Shown here: positions 1-51,250 of the stretch, piece after piece
Layout of the letters: every line of letters starts with the position of its first letter
How positions within the stretch are numbered: the stretch's first letter is position 1
Notes under the pieces: generated by a model
What the model was told of the DNA's origin: nothing
Databases searched by the model: none
Seen by the model: only the letters and a program-made list of their open reading frames with translations
Source: Candidatus Tumulicola scandinaviensis
GTDB taxonomy: Bacteria > Vulcanimicrobiota > Vulcanimicrobiia > Vulcanimicrobiales > Vulcanimicrobiaceae
Reading direction: 5' to 3'
Assembly (NCBI GenBank): GCA_003140835.1
Contig: PLLA01000097.1
Span: 1 to 64,000 of the forward strand
Length of the DNA stretch: 64,000 bases
Made by a program: the position numbers and the translations under genes

Positions 1-588
1 CGCCTCGTTGATCATCGGCATCAGGACGCGATTCGAGACGAATCCGGGGAAATCGCGCACCTCCACCGGGGTTTTCCCCATCTGCTCGGCCAAATCGCGC
101 GTGAAATCGTAGGTCGTTTGCGAGGTGGCGATGCCGCGGATGATCTCGACGAGCGCCATCACGGGCACCGGGTTCATGAAATGCATGCCGATGACGCGTT
201 CGGGGCGGCGCGTCACTGCGCCGAGGATGGTGATCGAGATCGAGGAGGTGTTGCTGGCCAGAATCGCTGGCGGCGCGCACTGCGCGTCGAGCGCGCGGAA
301 AATGGCGAGCTTCGTTTCGAGGTGTTCGCTCGCCGCCTCGATCGCCAGATCGACGTCGAGCGACTCGATCGCCGGAGCGGCGACGATTCGTTCGAGGATA
401 GCGGCGCGCGTCGCTGCGTCGATACGGCCCTTTTCGACGCTGCGGTCGAGATTTTTGGCAATACCCGCAACGCCGCGAGCGATGAGCTCCGGCGTTCGGT
501 CGTTCAAGAGAACGGCGTGGCCGCTCGCGGCCGCCACCTGCGCGATGCCCGAGCCCATTTGGCCGGCACCCACGACGGCGATCTTCAA
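1..588 (-). CDS. 3-hydroxybutyryl-CoA dehydrogenase (C-terminus beyond window)
   Basis: NAD(P)-dependent oxidation of 3-hydroxyacyl-CoA to 3-oxoacyl-CoA, as in butyrate or fatty-acid metabolism; cytosolic. The first 196 residues are visible. A Rossmann motif GAGQMGSG lies at residues 7-14, NTSS at 113-116, the catalytic-His segment GMHFMNPVP around 134-142 (His136), and PGFVSNR around 181-187, all typical of the HBD/PaaH family. The only usable start is TTG at 588, because TGA lies in frame a few codons upstream and there is no ATG or GTG between. It begins 18 bases after the thiolase stop, so the two are probably co-transcribed and catalyse consecutive steps (3-hydroxyacyl-CoA to 3-oxoacyl-CoA, then thiolysis). 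The C-terminal helical domain runs off the window edge. Confidence 0.9.
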   Translation of the reverse strand, partial: MKIAVVGAGQMGSGIAQVAAASGHAVLLNDRTPELIARGVAGIAKNLDRSVEKGRIDAATRAAILERIVAAPAIESLDVDLAIEAASEHLETKLAIFRALDAQCAPPAILASNTSSISITILGAVTRRPERVIGMHFMNPVPVMALVEIIRGIATSQTTYDFTRDLAEQMGKTPVEVRDFPGFVSNRVLMPMINEA

Positions 589-606
589 GACAACGTCATT
601 TCAACG

Positions 607-1950
607 TCAGCCGACCCGAACCAGCAGCGCGTCGCCCTGGCCACCGCCCGAACAAATCGAGGCGATTCCGTAGCCGCCGCCGCGCTTGCGGAGCTGGTTG
701 ATGACGGTCCCAACCAAGCGCGCTCCCGAGGCTCCGATCGGATGTCCCATCGCGACGGCGCCGCCGTAGAGGTTGATCGCGCTTTCGTCGAGCCCGAGAT
801 TTCGCGCCGATGCGAGGGCCACTGCCGAAAACGCTTCGTTGATCTCCCACACCGCAATATCGCTGCGTGTCAAACCAACGCGGTCGAGCAGTTTTTGAGC
901 CGCCATCGCGGGCGTCAAACAAATGTACGGCGAGTCCCACGCCACGGTCGCATGGTCGACGATCGTCGCGAGCGCCTCGTAGCCGTGCTGCGCCGCGTAC
1001 TCCGCATCGGCGAGAATCAAGGCGGCCGCCCCATCGTTCACGCCCGGTGCGTTGCCGGCGGTAATGGTTCCGTCTTTCTCCAGCGGACGCAGTTTGCCCA
1101 TCGTTTCGATGCTGGCATCGGCGCGCACCGCTTCGTCGCGATCGACCAAGATCGCCGCTTCGTCGCCGGCCACGAACGGGCCGTACTTCTCGTAGTCGAG
1201 GGTGAACTGCGCGGACGGTTCGTGATCCCACATGCGGCTGCCAGCGCCACCAACTGCGGCCGGAACGCGGACTTGGCCTCGCCGCGGCAGCTGCTTGACG
1301 ACGACCTTTCCTTTGGCTTTCGTTGCGACGTTCACGGGAACGATTTCGTCGGCAAACGCGCCCGACGCGTGCGTCGCGGCGCTGCGATGATGGCTCGCGA
1401 GCGCGAAGCGATCTTGCTCTTCGCGAGTGAAGCCGAGCTCTGAAGCAACCTTACTTCCTTGCGTCGCCATGGTCATGGGAAAGTATTGATCCCACAAACC
1501 GTCGTAAATCATCGCATCGACGAGCGCTCCGTCACCGAAGCGATAACCCCAGCGCGCGTCTCGCAATAGGTAGGGCGCGTTCGACATCGACTCCATGCCG
1601 CCGGCGGCGACGACGGCGTTGGCGCCCGCGTTGATCGACCGCATCGCGTTTACCACGGCGAGCAGGCCCGACGCGCACACTTTGTTGACGGTATCGGCCG
1701 TCACGGTTTTTGCCAGACCGGCTTTGAAGATCACCTGGCGGGCAGGATTCTGGCCGACGCCCGCCTGCAGCACCTCGCCGAAGACGGCGTGTTCGATTTC
1801 GCTCGGATCGATCTTCGCGCGCTCGATGGCGCCGGCCAGGGCGACCGCTCCTAACGTGGTGGCGTTGAGCGGGGCCAGGCCTCCGCCGAGCTTGCCGAAC
1901 GGCGTGCGGGCCATCGAAAGAACGACGGCTTTGGAATTCGTTGAAGTCAT
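607..1950 (-). CDS. Acetyl-CoA acetyltransferase (thiolase II family)
   Basis: Condenses or cleaves acetoacetyl-CoA and related 3-oxoacyl-CoA. In the 447-residue protein the nucleophilic Cys lies in NKVCASGL (Cys92), the His in AMGHPIGASG (about 403) and the second catalytic Cys in ICSGGGQG (about 433), the full thiolase triad. It is some 45 residues longer than usual because of an extra segment between roughly residues 205 and 255, before the GNAPGVNDGAAA motif. I chose ATG at 1950; an upstream in-frame start would add 15 Arg-rich residues with no family match. The downstream neighbour is 3-hydroxyacyl-CoA dehydrogenase, 18 bases away. Confidence 0.92.
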   Translation of the reverse strand: MTSTNSKAVVLSMARTPFGKLGGGLAPLNATTLGAVALAGAIERAKIDPSEIEHAVFGEVLQAGVGQNPARQVIFKAGLAKTVTADTVNKVCASGLLAVVNAMRSINAGANAVVAAGGMESMSNAPYLLRDARWGYRFGDGALVDAMIYDGLWDQYFPMTMATQGSKVASELGFTREEQDRFALASHHRSAATHASGAFADEIVPVNVATKAKGKVVVKQLPRRGQVRVPAAVGGAGSRMWDHEPSAQFTLDYEKYGPFVAGDEAAILVDRDEAVRADASIETMGKLRPLEKDGTITAGNAPGVNDGAAALILADAEYAAQHGYEALATIVDHATVAWDSPYICLTPAMAAQKLLDRVGLTRSDIAVWEINEAFSAVALASARNLGLDESAINLYGGAVAMGHPIGASGARLVGTVINQLRKRGGGYGIASICSGGGQGDALLVRVG

Positions 1951-2063
1951 AGCCCGATGGCCTTCGCGCGCCGTCGCGCACACCCCTCGGCTCAATCGCG
2001 GCTTTCCTACGCTCCGAGTCCAGCGGCCTCACGCTTGGCGTCCGGCATGCATTCAGGGAATCT

Positions 2064-4478: not shown

Positions 4479-5456
4479 TTATGCCGGCGCGCGATCGGCA
4501 AGGCGATCGAGGTCGGCCTTGACCATCATCTCCACGAGCTGTTCGAACGTCACCTCCGGAACCCAGCCGAGTTGACGGCGGGCTTTACCCGCGTCCCCGA
4601 TGAGCATATCGACTTCGGCCGGCCGCACGAAGCGCGGATCGGTGACGACGTACGGTTCGTACGAGCCGAGACCGGCCGCGTCGAACGCGATTCGAACGAA
4701 ATCCCGCACGCTGTGCGTGCGTCCGGTGGCGATGACGTAGTCGTCGGGCGCGTCGTCCTGCAACATCAGCCACATGGCGCGCACGTAGTCGCCCGCAAAG
4801 CCCCAATCGCGCTGCGCGTCCAAATTTCCAAGGCGGAGATTACTCGCCAAGCCCAGCTTGATGCGCGCGACTCCGTCGGAGATCTTCCGCGTAACGAACT
4901 CTTTGCCGCGACGCGGCGATTCGTGGTTGAAGAGCATTCCGCTGCATGCGAACATATCGTACGACTCGCGGTAGTTGACGGTTATCCAATGGCCGTACAC
5001 CTTAGCAACCCCATACGGGCTGCGCGGATAGAACGGCGTCGTCTCGGTTTGCGGGACCTCCACGACCTTACCGAACATTTCGGAACTCGAGGCCTGATAG
5101 AAGCGAATCGACTGATCGACGTGACGAACTGCTTCCAACGCGCGGGTAACGCCGAGCGCGGTGAACTCCCCGGTAAGCACCGGCTGGGTCCACGAAGCCG
5201 GTACGAACGACTGCGCCGCGAGATTGTAGAATTCGTCGGGCCGAACGTCGTTGACGATCGACGTCATCGACGTCTGATCGAGCAAGTCACCCGAAACGAT
5301 CTCGATGTTTTCGACGATGTGTTCGATGCGCTCGTGCACCTCGGTACTCGTGCGGCGCGTCATCCCGACGACGCGATAACCTTTGTCGAGCAGAAATTCG
5401 GCCAGGTACGAGCCGTCCTGACCGGTGATGCCCGTAATGAGTGCGGTTTTCTGCAA
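4479..5456 (-). CDS. gmd: GDP-mannose 4,6-dehydratase
   Basis: First committed step to GDP-6-deoxyhexoses: GDP-mannose to GDP-4-keto-6-deoxymannose, NADP-dependent, cytosolic. The 325-residue protein begins with [19 protein letters not shown], the family's hallmark GxxGxxG. The catalytic region is [11 protein letters not shown] and [32 protein letters not shown] and [14 protein letters not shown] are also typical GMD segments. Slightly short against the usual 340-370, but all core motifs are present. It sits 60 bases downstream of kamE and feeds the adjacent reductase, supplying a deoxyhexose for the surface glycan. Confidence 0.95.
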
Positions 5457-5516: not shown

Positions 5517-6269
5517 TCAGACTCGAGTTTCTTCGCGTAAGCGATGCGCCAGCGTTACGGCAATGAAGGCCGCGACTTCGCTCGGCAACGTTCCGCGGCC
5601 GAAGCCGGCATCGTAGCCCAGCTCGCTGGCCATCAGATTGGTGACGCGCGGTCCACCGCACACGAGCACCACCCGGTCGCGAAGGCCTTCGGCTTCCAAC
5701 AGTTCTGCCAGTTCGGTAAAATTCTTTAGATCGCTGCCCTTTTGGGTGACCACTTGGGACGCCAAGATCGCATCGACGGCATGCAGCTTGGTAAAAGCGA
5801 CGAGATCTTCGGGCGCGACTTGACTGCCCAAATTGAAGGTCTCGAACGAATGGTAGCGTTCTAAACCATAATCGCCTTTGTAGCCCTTCATATTGAGAAT
5901 GGCATCGATGCCGACGGTGTGCGCGTCGGTGCCGATGCACGCTCCGGCCACCCGAAGCTTGCGCCCGATACGGTCGAGGACGTAGGCATCGACCTCCTCC
6001 ATCGTCATCGCGTGCGTGCGGACCGACGGCGCGTGGATGGTCTCGAGGTCGACGCCTTGCGGCGTGCTGGCATACAGGACGAAAAAGGAAAAGCCGCCGG
6101 CGATCGGCCGCCCTTCGACCACCTGCACGTCGGCAAAGCCCATTTTGCCGGCTAGCTGGCGGGCCGCTTCGTCGGCGGTTTCGCTCCACTCCACCGGAAG
6201 CGTGAACGACATCTGCACTTTGCCGTCATTCATCGTATCGCCATACGGCTTGATCAATCTTCCGGTCAT
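5517..6269 (-). CDS. kamE: Lysine 5,6-aminomutase beta subunit (B12- and PLP-binding)
   Basis: Small subunit of adenosylcobalamin-dependent lysine 5,6-aminomutase, which moves the terminal amino group of D-lysine or L-beta-lysine to C5 in lysine fermentation. The 250-residue protein carries the base-off cobalamin motif DAHTVG (Asp115, His117). Eleven residues later Lys128 (in ILNMKGYKG) matches the lysine that holds PLP in the known enzyme, so both cofactor residues appear intact. The ATG at 6269 overlaps the kamD TGA (ATGA), implying translational coupling. The remaining lysine-fermentation genes are not adjacent; a likely kal lies near 51 kb. Confidence 0.93.
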   Translation of the reverse strand: MTGRLIKPYGDTMNDGKVQMSFTLPVEWSETADEAARQLAGKMGFADVQVVEGRPIAGGFSFFVLYASTPQGVDLETIHAPSVRTHAMTMEEVDAYVLDRIGRKLRVAGACIGTDAHTVGIDAILNMKGYKGDYGLERYHSFETFNLGSQVAPEDLVAFTKLHAVDAILASQVVTQKGSDLKNFTELAELLEAEGLRDRVVLVCGGPRVTNLMASELGYDAGFGRGTLPSEVAAFIAVTLAHRLREETRV

Positions 6270-7819
6270 GCCGTAAATGGTTCGCCGCGCAACGCGTTCT
6301 CGAACGGATTGACGTAGCCGGCCGCACGGGGAAATACTCCGTCGAATCCGCGGCCGCCGTCGGGCGACCGCTTGACGTCGGCAAAGAGCGCAGCATCGAT
6401 GGCGGCCATCAAGCCCATGCCGGCCACCCGATCCAACAGCGCTTCGCAACCGGCGAGCACGTCCTCGGCCCGCCGCTCGATTCGGCCGCCCGGCCGAAGC
6501 GCGATTTCGTCGCCGAAGTGACGCGCGGTATTCATGATGTAGCGCGCGTTTTCGATCGAAAGCGCGCGGTCGGCGAGATACGGCGTGTGGATCGCTTCGG
6601 TGAGCATTCCGCACAAGTGGATCGTCTGCCCGGTCATCACCGACGTAAGATTGAACAGCGCGTCGACGAGATGCCCCTTGAAGATGTCGCCGGTCATGTG
6701 CTTGGTGGGCGGCATGTACTTCAGCGGCGCGTTCGGGAATATCTGGCGCGCCAACTGTGCTTGCGCGACCTGAAACAGAAAGCCGTCTTCGAGGCCGGGG
6801 TCGATCTCGTACGCGTCGCCGAGACCGATCTGCGCGTCCGGCATGCCGGCCCGATGGGCGAACTCTTCGTTGATGAATTGCGAGGCGAGCACCGCCGGCG
6901 CCTGATCGACGGCATCGGCCGTCGTGAGATAGTTGTCCTCTCCGGTGTTGATGACGATGCCGGAGTAGGCGTTGAGCATGCGGCTGAAATGCTGGTCCAC
7001 GAACGTGCGCTTCATATTGATGTCGCGAAAGAGAATGCCGTACATCGAATCATTGAGCAGCATGTCGAGCCGCTCCAGCGCGGCGGTCGCCGCGATTTCC
7101 GGCATGCACAGCCCGCTCGCGTAGTTGGTGAGCATGACGTAGCGGCCGAGTTTTTCGGAAACCTGGTCGAGCGCCGCGCGCATGATGCGGAAGTTGGCCT
7201 GGGTGGCATACGTCCCGCCGAAACCTTCGGTGGTCGGGCCAAATGGAACGAAGTCGAGCAGCGACTGCCCGGTAGAGCGAATCACGGCGATGATTTGAGC
7301 GCCGGCCTCGGCCGCCGCTACCGCGGCCGAGCGATCCTCGTAGATGTTGCCGCTGGCGACGATCACGTAGAGCAGCGGCGGCGGGAGTTGCGGCCAGCGC
7401 GCGAGCAACGCCTGGCGTTCTTCGCGCCTGACGCGCAGGTGCGCCAGAGCCGACTCGACGTGGGGGCGCAAGGCGCCCAGCGCCGCCGCGTCGGGCACAC
7501 CAGCGAAATCGGCCAGCGCGTAGCGGCCAACGGCGATGGCTTCACCGAGTACGCCCGGGTCGAGCCCCGTCTCGGCGACGCCGCGCCCAAACGCCAGTGC
7601 GGCACCGCGCCGGCGCTCCGCCTCGGGGAGCGCGTCGACAATAAGGTTTGCCACCGGAACGTCGTCGGGCCCCACGCCGTCGACGCCGAAAAGGCGCAGC
7701 ACCGCGCGCTCGACCGAGACGGTCGAATGGGCGGCGATGAACTCTTGGACCGGCGCGGCGATGGCGGACGCTAACGCCCGGCAGCGGTCGACGGCGGTGC
7801 GATCGATCCGTAGTTCCAC
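6266..7819 (-). CDS. kamD: Lysine 5,6-aminomutase alpha subunit
   Basis: Large TIM-barrel subunit of the cobalamin/PLP-dependent lysine 5,6-aminomutase, 517 residues, the expected length. Recognisable family stretches include IIAVIRSTGQSLLDFVPFG, TEGFGGTYATQANFRIMR, NYASGLCMPEIA, PPTKHMTGDIFKGH and LTEAIHTPYLADR. The start is GTG at 7819. No Shine-Dalgarno sequence is visible, and the 57 bases after the reductase gene hold TAAGAT about 20 bases ahead, which might be a weak promoter element. It is directly followed by kamE with a 4-base overlap. The pair sits between deoxysugar genes, which is odd for a catabolic enzyme. Confidence 0.95.
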   Translation of the reverse strand: MELRIDRTAVDRCRALASAIAAPVQEFIAAHSTVSVERAVLRLFGVDGVGPDDVPVANLIVDALPEAERRRGAALAFGRGVAETGLDPGVLGEAIAVGRYALADFAGVPDAAALGALRPHVESALAHLRVRREERQALLARWPQLPPPLLYVIVASGNIYEDRSAAVAAAEAGAQIIAVIRSTGQSLLDFVPFGPTTEGFGGTYATQANFRIMRAALDQVSEKLGRYVMLTNYASGLCMPEIAATAALERLDMLLNDSMYGILFRDINMKRTFVDQHFSRMLNAYSGIVINTGEDNYLTTADAVDQAPAVLASQFINEEFAHRAGMPDAQIGLGDAYEIDPGLEDGFLFQVAQAQLARQIFPNAPLKYMPPTKHMTGDIFKGHLVDALFNLTSVMTGQTIHLCGMLTEAIHTPYLADRALSIENARYIMNTARHFGDEIALRPGGRIERRAEDVLAGCEALLDRVAGMGLMAAIDAALFADVKRSPDGGRGFDGVFPRAAGYVNPFENALRGEPFTA

Positions 7820-7876: not shown

Positions 7877-8725
7877 TCAAAGGCTCCCAAGATAGGCCGC
7901 GATTCCTTGGCGCCACGAGGGCATGTCGAAGCCGAGGGCCCGCAGTTTCCCGCTCTCCAAGGCAGAGAAAGCCGGACGCCGGGCGGCCATTTTCCATTCC
8001 CGCGCGGAAATCGGCTCGACGGCATAGTCGATCCCCGCCTGGGCCAGCGCCTCGCACGCGAAGTCGTACCAGGTCACCGGGCCGGCGTTGGCGGCGTGAT
8101 ACAGTCCCGTTTCCCCGCTCTCGACCAACGCGAGCAGCGCCTCAGCCAAATGGCCGGCGAAGGTCGGGGACGCCCACACGTCGTTGACGATTCGTAAAGG
8201 CTCGTTGGCGCGAGCCTGCGCGATGACGCGATCGACGAACGTGTAACCCTTCGTGGCAGAGGGTCGCAGGCCGTACACTCCGCAAGTGCGCACCACCAGG
8301 GCGCGCGATCCGGCGGCCTCGACCAACAGTTCGCCGGCCAGCTTTGAAACGCCGTAGGCGGAGATTGGGTGAACCGGATCGTCTTCGACGTACGGCCGTG
8401 TCGACGTACCGTCGAAAACGTAGTCGCTGCTGACCGTGACGAAGAGGACGTCGCGATCGCGGCACGCACGGGCGGCGCGTGCGACGGCTACGGCATTGAC
8501 GGCAAGCGCGCGATCCGGCTCCGCCTCACACCGGTCCACGTTATGAAATGCCGCGCAATTCACGACCGCCGCCGGGACGACGCGGTCGATGGCGGCCGCC
8601 AGCGCATCCGTATTTTCGAGATCGAGGTCGGCGTGCGCCGGTGCCGTAACGTCGTAGTCCGTCCACCGGCGCCGAATTTCGGTGCCGAGTTGTCCGGAAC
8701 CGCCGATCACCAGCACCCGGTTCAT
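7877..8725 (-). CDS. rfbD: dTDP-4-dehydrorhamnose reductase
   Basis: Last step of dTDP-L-rhamnose synthesis (NADPH reduction of dTDP-4-keto-L-rhamnose), 282 residues. It has VLVIGGSGQLGTEI at 4-17, AAFHNVDRCE, TVSSDYVFDGTSTRPYVEDD, PISAYGVSKLAGE (catalytic Tyr-x3-Lys) and VVRTCGVYG, all RmlD signatures. It overlaps the preceding flippase gene's stop by ATGA. An RmlC-family epimerase starts divergently at 10202, but RmlA and RmlB are not in the window. Confidence 0.93.
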   Translation of the reverse strand: MNRVLVIGGSGQLGTEIRRRWTDYDVTAPAHADLDLENTDALAAAIDRVVPAAVVNCAAFHNVDRCEAEPDRALAVNAVAVARAARACRDRDVLFVTVSSDYVFDGTSTRPYVEDDPVHPISAYGVSKLAGELLVEAAGSRALVVRTCGVYGLRPSATKGYTFVDRVIAQARANEPLRIVNDVWASPTFAGHLAEALLALVESGETGLYHAANAGPVTWYDFACEALAQAGIDYAVEPISAREWKMAARRPAFSALESGKLRALGFDMPSWRQGIAAYLGSL

Positions 8726-49682: not shown

Positions 49683-50876
49683 ATGCTAGTCCGGATCACG
49701 GGATTAGGCCCGGGCGACCCAAGCCTTTTGACCATCGGCGCACTCGATGCGCTTCGGGCCATCGGGCGCGCGGTCGCGCTGCTGGCTCCGCCGGATTTGA
49801 GCGGCTATTTGAGCGGCAACGGCGTGCGAATCGAGCGCGGGCTGGTCGACGATCCCGCTCTCTTCGTACGCGGAGGCCGCGACGAAATCGAACGCTTCGT
49901 CGAGCGGATTCAGGCAAACGAGTCGTCGGATTTGGGGCTCGGCGTGCTGGGGAATCCGCTTTCCGACTTCCCGGGTCTGCCCCAGCTGCTGCGGTTGCTC
50001 GAACGCGCAAAAATCGCCGCGGAAATCGTCCCTGGCGTCCCCCGCTCGACCCTCGCCGCCTCGATCGCGCTGCCCCTGGTTCCACTCCCGCCGCACTCGT
50101 CGCTCTACTCGTGGGACGATTTGATCGAAATCATGGCGCGTCTGCGTTTGGGATGCCCGTGGGATCGCGAACAGACGCACCGCACGCTCCTGCCCTATCT
50201 CATCGAAGAGACGTACGAAGTCGTCGAAGCCGTCGAGAGCGGCGACTTAGATGCCCTGTGCGAAGAGCTCGGCGACTTGCTGCTCCAAATCGTCTTTCAC
50301 TCGCAAGTCGCCACCGAGACGGGGAAGTTCAGCATCGCCGACGTGGTGAACGCGCTGTCGAACAAAATGGTGCGCCGGCATCCGCACGTCTTCGGCGACG
50401 CCGTCATCGAGGACGTCGACGCACAGTGGCGCAATTGGGAGAAACTCAAAGCGCTCGAAAAAACCGGCCGCAATCGCAAAAGCCGGCTCGACGGCATACC
50501 CAAACAGCTCGGCGCTCTGCAGCGCGGCCAGCGGATGCAAGAAAAAGCCTCGCGCGTCGGCTTCGATTGGCCCGGCGTCGGCGGCATTCTCGACAAGTTG
50601 ACCGAGGAGTTGCAAGAACTGGCCGAAGCGCGCCGCACCAAGCAAGACGATCCGCACGTGCGCGAAGAGCTGGGCGACGTCTTCTTCACGCTGGTGAATC
50701 TTTCGCGGGCGCTCGGCATCGATGCGGAAACCGCCATGCGCCAAGCCAACGAAAAGTTCTACAAACGGTTCGGCTTTATGGAAGAACGCGCCGCCGCCGG
50801 CGGCAAGACCCTCTCCGACCTCTCGCTCGACGAACTCGAGGAACTGTGGCAACTGGCGAAAACCCAAGCGGCGTAG
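49683..50876 (+). CDS. mazG: MazG nucleotide pyrophosphohydrolase with shortened methylase-like N-domain (YabN-like)
   Basis: Hydrolyses non-canonical or damaged NTPs to NMP and pyrophosphate. 397 residues. Residues 1-140 look like a reduced tetrapyrrole-methylase domain ([33 protein letters not shown]), about 80 residues shorter than in YabN. Two MazG segments follow: [28 protein letters not shown] with [14 protein letters not shown] (EExxE...ExxD metal motifs), and [12 protein letters not shown] with [14 protein letters not shown]. The order mfd...mazG...rqcP mirrors the Bacillus mfd-yabN-yabO region. It follows a terminator. Confidence 0.93.
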
Positions 50877-50881
50877 CCCGC

Positions 50882-51250
50882 GTGAGGCTGCGCATGAGCG
50901 CGCACGACGCCCACTACGGCGGCAACTTGGTCGACGGCGCGCGAATGCTCGCGCTCTTCGGCGACGTCGCGACCGAACTCCTCATCAGGCTGGACGGCGA
51001 TGAAGGCCTCTTCGTGGCGTACGACGCGGTCGAGTTTCTGGCGCCCGTGTATGCCGGCGATTACATCGAAGCCGAGGGCCGTATCGTAAAAGTCGGCAAC
51101 ACGTCGCGACGGATGGAGTTCGAGGCACGCAAGGTCGTCGCGGCCCGCCCGGAGATTTCCGACAGCGCCGCCGATGCGCTCGATCCACCGGTCGTCGTTT
51201 GCCGTGCGAGCGGCACCTGCGTCACTCCTAAAACCAAGAAGCGCCACTAG
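50882..51250 (+). CDS. kal: 3-aminobutyryl-CoA ammonia-lyase (hotdog fold)
   Basis: Small hotdog-fold enzyme of lysine fermentation that removes ammonia from 3-aminobutyryl-CoA to give crotonyl-CoA; 122 residues. [59 protein letters not shown] and [14 protein letters not shown] match the Kal pattern I know from fermentative Firmicutes and Fusobacteria; a beta-alanyl-CoA ammonia-lyase is the closest alternative. GTG at 50882 lies 5 bases after the mazG stop. Its partners kamDE lie at 5.5-7.8 kb, far away in this window. Confidence 0.85.

Follow-up and report, generated by a model that had tools for sequence, protein, structure and literature searches.

Why should the genes of a lysine 5,6-aminomutase lie within a block of deoxysugar genes, and do they belong to a functioning pathway? 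The window, that is, the whole stretch of DNA analysed, comprises 64,000 nucleotides (C37:1-64000, beginning at contig base 1) of a 4.0-Mb draft genome that is distributed over 130 contigs and is 92% complete. Its lineage is Candidatus Eremiobacterota/Vulcanimicrobiota, probably of the order Baltobacterales, an assignment that combines the order name of the published taxonomy (PMC9758169) with the presumed identity of genome G009 as Vulcanimicrobium alpinus. A sequence-only reading of this DNA had proposed a dispersed lysine-to-crotonyl-CoA pathway, of the type used in lysine fermentation. Our analyses make it probable that kamDE and kal are parts of a complete catabolic pathway from lysine to crotonyl-CoA and acetoacetate, used oxidatively and split over four sites by the stepwise dissolution of an operon.

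Identity and neighbourhood of kamDE and kal

In profile searches, KamD matched the lysine 5,6-aminomutase alpha-subunit model NF052384 with 769 bits (cut-off 600) and PF09043 with 761 bits, and phmmer aligned it end to end with the alpha subunits of PDB entries 8t0v, 9q1a and 1xrs (E about 1e-180). KamE scored 343 bits against NF052385 (cut-off 280). Its ATG start, at 6269-6267, overlaps the kamD stop codon as ATGA, and its His117 and Lys128, for cobalamin and PLP, align with His133 and Lys144 of 1xrs_B, thus confirming the two intact genes and the 11-residue spacing described earlier. Kal scored 196 bits against NF052388 (cut-off 160), and its GTG start lies 5 bp past the mazG stop. These matches to curated models indicate that KamD, KamE and Kal are full-length family members, rather than chance similarities. 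The only other model matched by KamD was OraE, at 117 bits and thus far short of the cut-off of 800, and D-ornithine 4,5-aminomutase was therefore rejected as its identity. The possibility that a phylogeny would place it with a different aminomutase was likewise not borne out, as KamD stays among the lysine 5,6-aminomutases in the tree.

The sequence-only reading also described the surroundings correctly: kamDE lies between rmlD (rfbD) and gmd, kal lies far away, and a thiolase and a 3-hydroxyacyl-CoA dehydrogenase are encoded at the contig start (Table 1). All four genes from rmlD to gmd are on the minus strand. Because the gaps are short (57 bp between rmlD and kamD, 60 bp between kamE and gmd), they may form an operon. 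The thiolase is a candidate for the last step, from acetoacetyl-CoA to two acetyl-CoA. No RNA elements or tRNAs, such as a cobalamin riboswitch, were found in the window at the gathering threshold, and a scan for promoters and terminators gave matches near the chance level.

Table 1. Features of the window, and of contigs C47 and C15 of the same genome, that are discussed in the text
Feature	Position	Strand	Basis and remarks
kamD, lysine 5,6-aminomutase alpha	6266-7819	-	517 aa; NF052384 and PF09043; PDB 8t0v/1xrs alpha subunits
kamE, lysine 5,6-aminomutase beta	5517-6269	-	250 aa; NF052385, PF16554, PF02310; alignment to 1xrs_B
kal, 3-aminobutyryl-CoA ammonia lyase	50882-51250	+	122 aa, GTG start; NF052388; directly 3' of mazG
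mazG-like gene (context)	49683-50876	+	ORF upstream of kal; named by sequence recognition
acetyl-CoA acetyltransferase/thiolase	607-1995	-	PF00108/PF02803, TIGR01930 398 bits; same block 3' of kamDE in relatives
3-hydroxybutyryl-CoA dehydrogenase (HBD)	1-588	-	3' part lost at contig start; PF02737, NF004474 263 bits over the part present
rmlD, dTDP-4-dehydrorhamnose reductase (context)	7877-8725	-	TIGR01214 268 bits, cut-off 224; upstream of kamD
gmd, GDP-mannose 4,6-dehydratase (context)	4479-5456	-	TIGR01472 439 bits, cut-off 415; downstream of kamE
kamA	C47:11178-12233	same as kdd	TIGR00238; kdd immediately upstream
kce	C15:125185-125982		directly downstream of kamB and kamC

The remaining pathway genes and their layout

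The three enzymes on whose presence elsewhere in the genome the earlier proposal depended, KamA, Kdd and Kce, are all encoded there, together with the KamBC reactivase of lysine 5,6-aminomutase. KamA scored 226 bits against the subfamily model TIGR00238 (cut-off 199) and 238 bits against the AblA equivalog TIGR03820 (cut-off 525). It aligns to the Clostridium lysine 2,3-aminomutase 2a5h at C125/C129/C132, R134, D293, D330 and K337, positions that correspond to the CxxxCxxC motif of the iron-sulfur cluster, Arg134, the lysine-binding Asp293 and Asp330, and the PLP-binding Lys337. These aligned residues and the adjacent kdd support calling the C47 gene KamA-like. Kdd scored 244 bits against NF052381 (cut-off 200) and KamC 310 bits (cut-off 300), while KamB, the sole match in the genome, reached 173 bits, below its cut-off of 210. 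Kce, of the BKACE family, scored 379.6 bits against NF052387 (cut-off 382), the best among the matched NCBIfam models, and its closest PDB entry is the Kce structure 2y7d, from Candidatus Cloacamonas. A second, longer BKACE-family gene of about 300 aa was seen in several genomes (G006:C3:1097251, G019:C37:115493, G025:C47:16196 and G027:C183:15437), including G019, which is devoid of the lysine pathway.

The pathway to crotonyl-CoA and acetoacetate is thus predicted to be complete at the gene level. KamA, a radical SAM enzyme, would convert L-lysine to beta-lysine, and the B12- and PLP-dependent KamDE, kept active by KamBC, would produce 3,5-diaminohexanoate, which Kdd would turn into 3-keto-5-aminohexanoate. 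Kce would then combine this product with acetyl-CoA to yield 3-aminobutyryl-CoA and acetoacetate, and Kal would release ammonia from the former to give crotonyl-CoA. Hydration and oxidation of crotonyl-CoA would fall to crotonase, HBD and thiolase, whereas acetoacetate would be activated by ScoAB, and the resulting acetyl-CoA would feed the TCA cycle and respiration. For these later steps, the genome encodes ScoAB-family CoA transferase subunits on C15, with an adjoining acyl-CoA dehydrogenase gene, several crotonase-family proteins and a 2-oxoglutarate dehydrogenase-like protein. Thiolase, HBD, crotonase and ScoAB are widespread in aerobes and unspecific to lysine. At one locus (L032:1069-5031), a single 1320-aa ORF looks like a fused E2/E1 2-oxoglutarate dehydrogenase of the multifunctional type.

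The genes occupy four chromosomal sites: kamDE, kal, kdd-kamA and kamBC-kce. The earlier proposal of a dispersed pathway therefore stands, but with the correction that the dispersal is family-wide and its positions conserved, rather than a feature of this genome alone. Among the relatives, kal is located 3' of mazG in 20/20, in the order mfd-prsA-mazG-kal; kdd precedes kamA in 18/18; and oppB-oppC follow kce on its 3' side in 20/20, with kamB and/or kamC on its 5' side in 18. KamC is missing in some relatives that retain KamD. In the presumed V. alpinus genome, kamC (L218; G009:C1:875092-876612) is not adjacent to kce, but about 10 kb upstream. A solute-binding gene facing kdd was seen in the window genome and, of five inspected relatives from the same family, in four (L199, L200, L201 and L208); the two such genes that were scanned encode SBP_bac_5 proteins. 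The block around kamDE, in the order sigma factor-rmlC, flippase-rmlD-kamD-kamE-gmd-rmd-methyltransferase-CDF-thiolase-HBD, recurs whole or in part across genera. Such stable positions may reflect ordinary conservation of gene order.

The position of kamDE could instead reflect a function together with the dTDP- and GDP-deoxysugar genes, for example by providing a surface glycan with an amino-acyl group made from lysine. The short same-strand gaps to rmlD and gmd would fit such a role, as would the fact that 12 of the 18 Eremiobacterota loci extending far enough to judge have gmd no more than 2 kb from kamE. However, gmd is missing near kamDE in five loci (L123, L130, L135, L138 and L139), and unrelated genes separate kamDE from its neighbours in others, including PilZ-type genes between kamE and gmd in some relatives and a VapBC-like pair. 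Moreover, the rest of the pathway is retained, down to the deaminating Kal, and kal is kept just as stably beside mazG, to which it has no apparent link. We give the glycan explanation almost no credence, and regard the deoxysugar neighbourhood as an inherited gene order, absent in some relatives, that implies no tie to deoxysugar synthesis. By eye, the VapBC-like pair consists of two small genes, one antitoxin-like and one PIN-domain toxin-like, which split kamD from kamE at L131:9576-10249; at L123:6288-8656, kamD and kamE are separated by two ORFs, which look like an ATP-binding regulator and a ParA-type ATPase, respectively.

The sister family presents a less dispersed layout. Its kdd-kamA-(response regulator)-kamB-kamC-kce-oppB-oppC genes form a single run (L203 and L204), from which kamDE and kal are already apart. 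For the other bacteria identified in the KamD scan, the usual arrangement is a cluster around kamDE, with short contigs hiding some of the genes. The operon therefore seems to have come apart stepwise, as kdd-kamA-kamBC-kce is still in one piece in the sister family and a single cluster is found in most other bacteria. In the first step, kamDE and kal would have departed before the split of the two Baltobacterales families; in the second, kdd-kamA would have separated from kamBC-kce in the family of the window, and the new positions would thereafter have been retained by ordinary inheritance. Such a two-step dissolution appears to be the simplest history, with an order of events that is read from the layout only. 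Near kdd in the sister family, we also observed a histidine kinase gene (L204:2189-4216) and, between kamA and kamB, a receiver-only response regulator (L204:7283-7648), which are candidate regulators of the pathway.

Distribution and physiology of the hosts

The nearest KamD proteins, 73-82% identical to that of the window, belong to records named Candidatus Eremiobacterota, Vulcanimicrobiota or WPS-2, or to MAGs that group with these, while the next-nearest are at most 61% identical. In two Baltobacterales families, nearly every member carries KamD, Kdd, Kal and Kce; a sample of 12 genomes from the next family lacks them and yielded only weak Kal-like matches below the cut-off. KamD was likewise absent from the genomes sampled in another family of the class. 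We rejected the idea that the window contig is a contaminant or was misbinned, as these genes have the same neighbours in many independent genomes, one of which is a single contig. In a quick tree, with SH-aLRT support only, the Baltobacterales KamD proteins form one clade with 100% support, and those of several other families of the phylum fall outside it. The tree therefore does not support the view that KamD descends from the common ancestor of the phylum.

Within the family of the window, 54 of the 57 genomes that are each at least 90% complete carry KamD. Both KamD and Kdd are present in 51, neither in three, KamD alone in three and Kdd alone in none (Fisher one-sided p 7e-4, a value overstated by treating the genomes as independent). 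The three double absences fall in three separate genera (g19, g22 and g36). Thus, the unlinked KamD and Kdd genes tend to be lost together. In one draft genome of 360 contigs (G027), kdd, kamA and kce are contiguous, without kamB and kamC between them (L235; G027:C328:8000-17000). KamD gave no match in this genome and KamC none above the cut-off, which may reflect a joint loss of the mutase and its reactivase.

How would such a pathway be used? Radical SAM enzymes are of an oxygen-sensitive type, and true fermentation of lysine to butyrate and acetate under anoxia, as in Fusobacterium and clostridia, would accord with this property of the enzymes, with an identical enzyme set up to crotonyl-CoA and with the acyl-CoA dehydrogenase gene adjoining ScoAB. 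The physiology of the hosts argues otherwise. Genes for COX1-family heme-copper oxidases were found in all of the 41 genomes searched (41/41), and the window genome has the 2-oxoglutarate dehydrogenase-like gene. V. alpinus, the sole isolate of the phylum, is obligately aerobic and has complete TCA-cycle genes, and none of the anaerobic or fermentative conditions tested supported its growth (PMC9758169). Since every genome searched has the oxidase genes and the isolate is an obligate aerobe without fermentative growth, fermentation in these hosts is unlikely, to the point that we accord it only a slim chance, and oxidative lysine (co-)catabolism is the likely role. The earlier assignment of kamDE and kal to a lysine-fermentation pathway therefore holds for the genes, which are all present, while the fermentative physiology is probably wrong.

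The same isolate did not grow with L-lysine as the sole carbon source, even with B12 supplied (PMC9758169), although G009, presumably its genome, carries the pathway genes. Lysine use by these bacteria is thus a prediction. This lack of growth, the dispersal of the operon and the missing KamC in some KamD-bearing relatives could point to a relic or repurposed pathway, with beta-lysine or 3,5-diaminohexanoate serving as a solute, or with lysine detoxification in place of carbon catabolism. However, the window genome has intact ORFs that are strongly conserved between genera (75-83% identity for KamD), the unlinked KamD and Kdd tend towards joint loss, and peptide-type transporter genes remain beside kce and kdd. 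We consider a relic or repurposed pathway improbable and retain oxidative catabolism as the best reading. The genes, their model matches, key residues and conserved positions, and the respiratory oxidase genes are observed, and from these we infer the flux, the oxidative use, the substrate of the neighbouring peptide-type transporter and the order of events. In its fullest form, our proposal is that an oxygen-respiring order uses an "anaerobic" B12/radical-SAM lysine route oxidatively, and that the operon for it broke up, in two or more steps, to leave the genes at fixed positions within housekeeping and polysaccharide blocks but still forming a functional unit; we favour this broader statement by a modest degree.

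If true, it would be an instance from nature in which an operon broke up while its pathway was retained, and a clear example of stepwise dissolution, with sister families displaying intermediate and final layouts and with unlinked genes tending towards joint loss. It would also provide an unreported amino-acid catabolic route for a widespread and poorly cultured soil phylum from which an isolate is available. For metagenome surveys, the KamADE-Kdd-Kce-Kal set should not automatically be read as fermentation or butyrate production.

Comparison with known systems

The lineage and the gene layout are new here, whereas the enzymology is known. A search of the openly licensed literature found neither an Eremiobacterota paper on this pathway, in keeping with the earlier remark that the lineage is not usually credited with it, nor a description of the family-wide dispersed layout. 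The pathway scheme, its enzymes and reactions have been described, as has the Kat variant of lysine fermentation in Candidatus Cloacamonas (PMC3149608).

OraSE, the D-ornithine 4,5-aminomutase, has its fold and cofactors in common with KamDE, but matches weakly, and the KamD of the window is not a member of that family. The Kce of the Kat variant provides the closest solved structure to the Kce described here; in contrast to that variant, Kal is present, as in the canonical route. The lysine fermentation of Clostridium/Acetoanaerobium, Fusobacterium and Intestinimonas employs the same families (KamA, KamDE, Kdd, Kce and Kal) in each of the five steps that lead to crotonyl-CoA and acetoacetate. 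Here, however, the genes lie at four separate sites in an oxygen-respiring host, and the downstream route is probably of the beta-oxidation type with the TCA cycle, rather than butyrate formation.

The kdd-kamA-kamBC-kamDE-(kal)-kce clusters of Burkholderiales, Alicyclobacillaceae and Thermoactinomycetaceae, whose KamD proteins are about 54-60% identical to that of the window, contain largely the same gene set. The genera concerned are generally known as aerobic. Because KamD thus also occurs in cultured genera of this kind, this phylum is probably not alone in using the route for purposes other than fermentation. In those bacteria the genes form one run, whereas in Baltobacterales they are dispersed.
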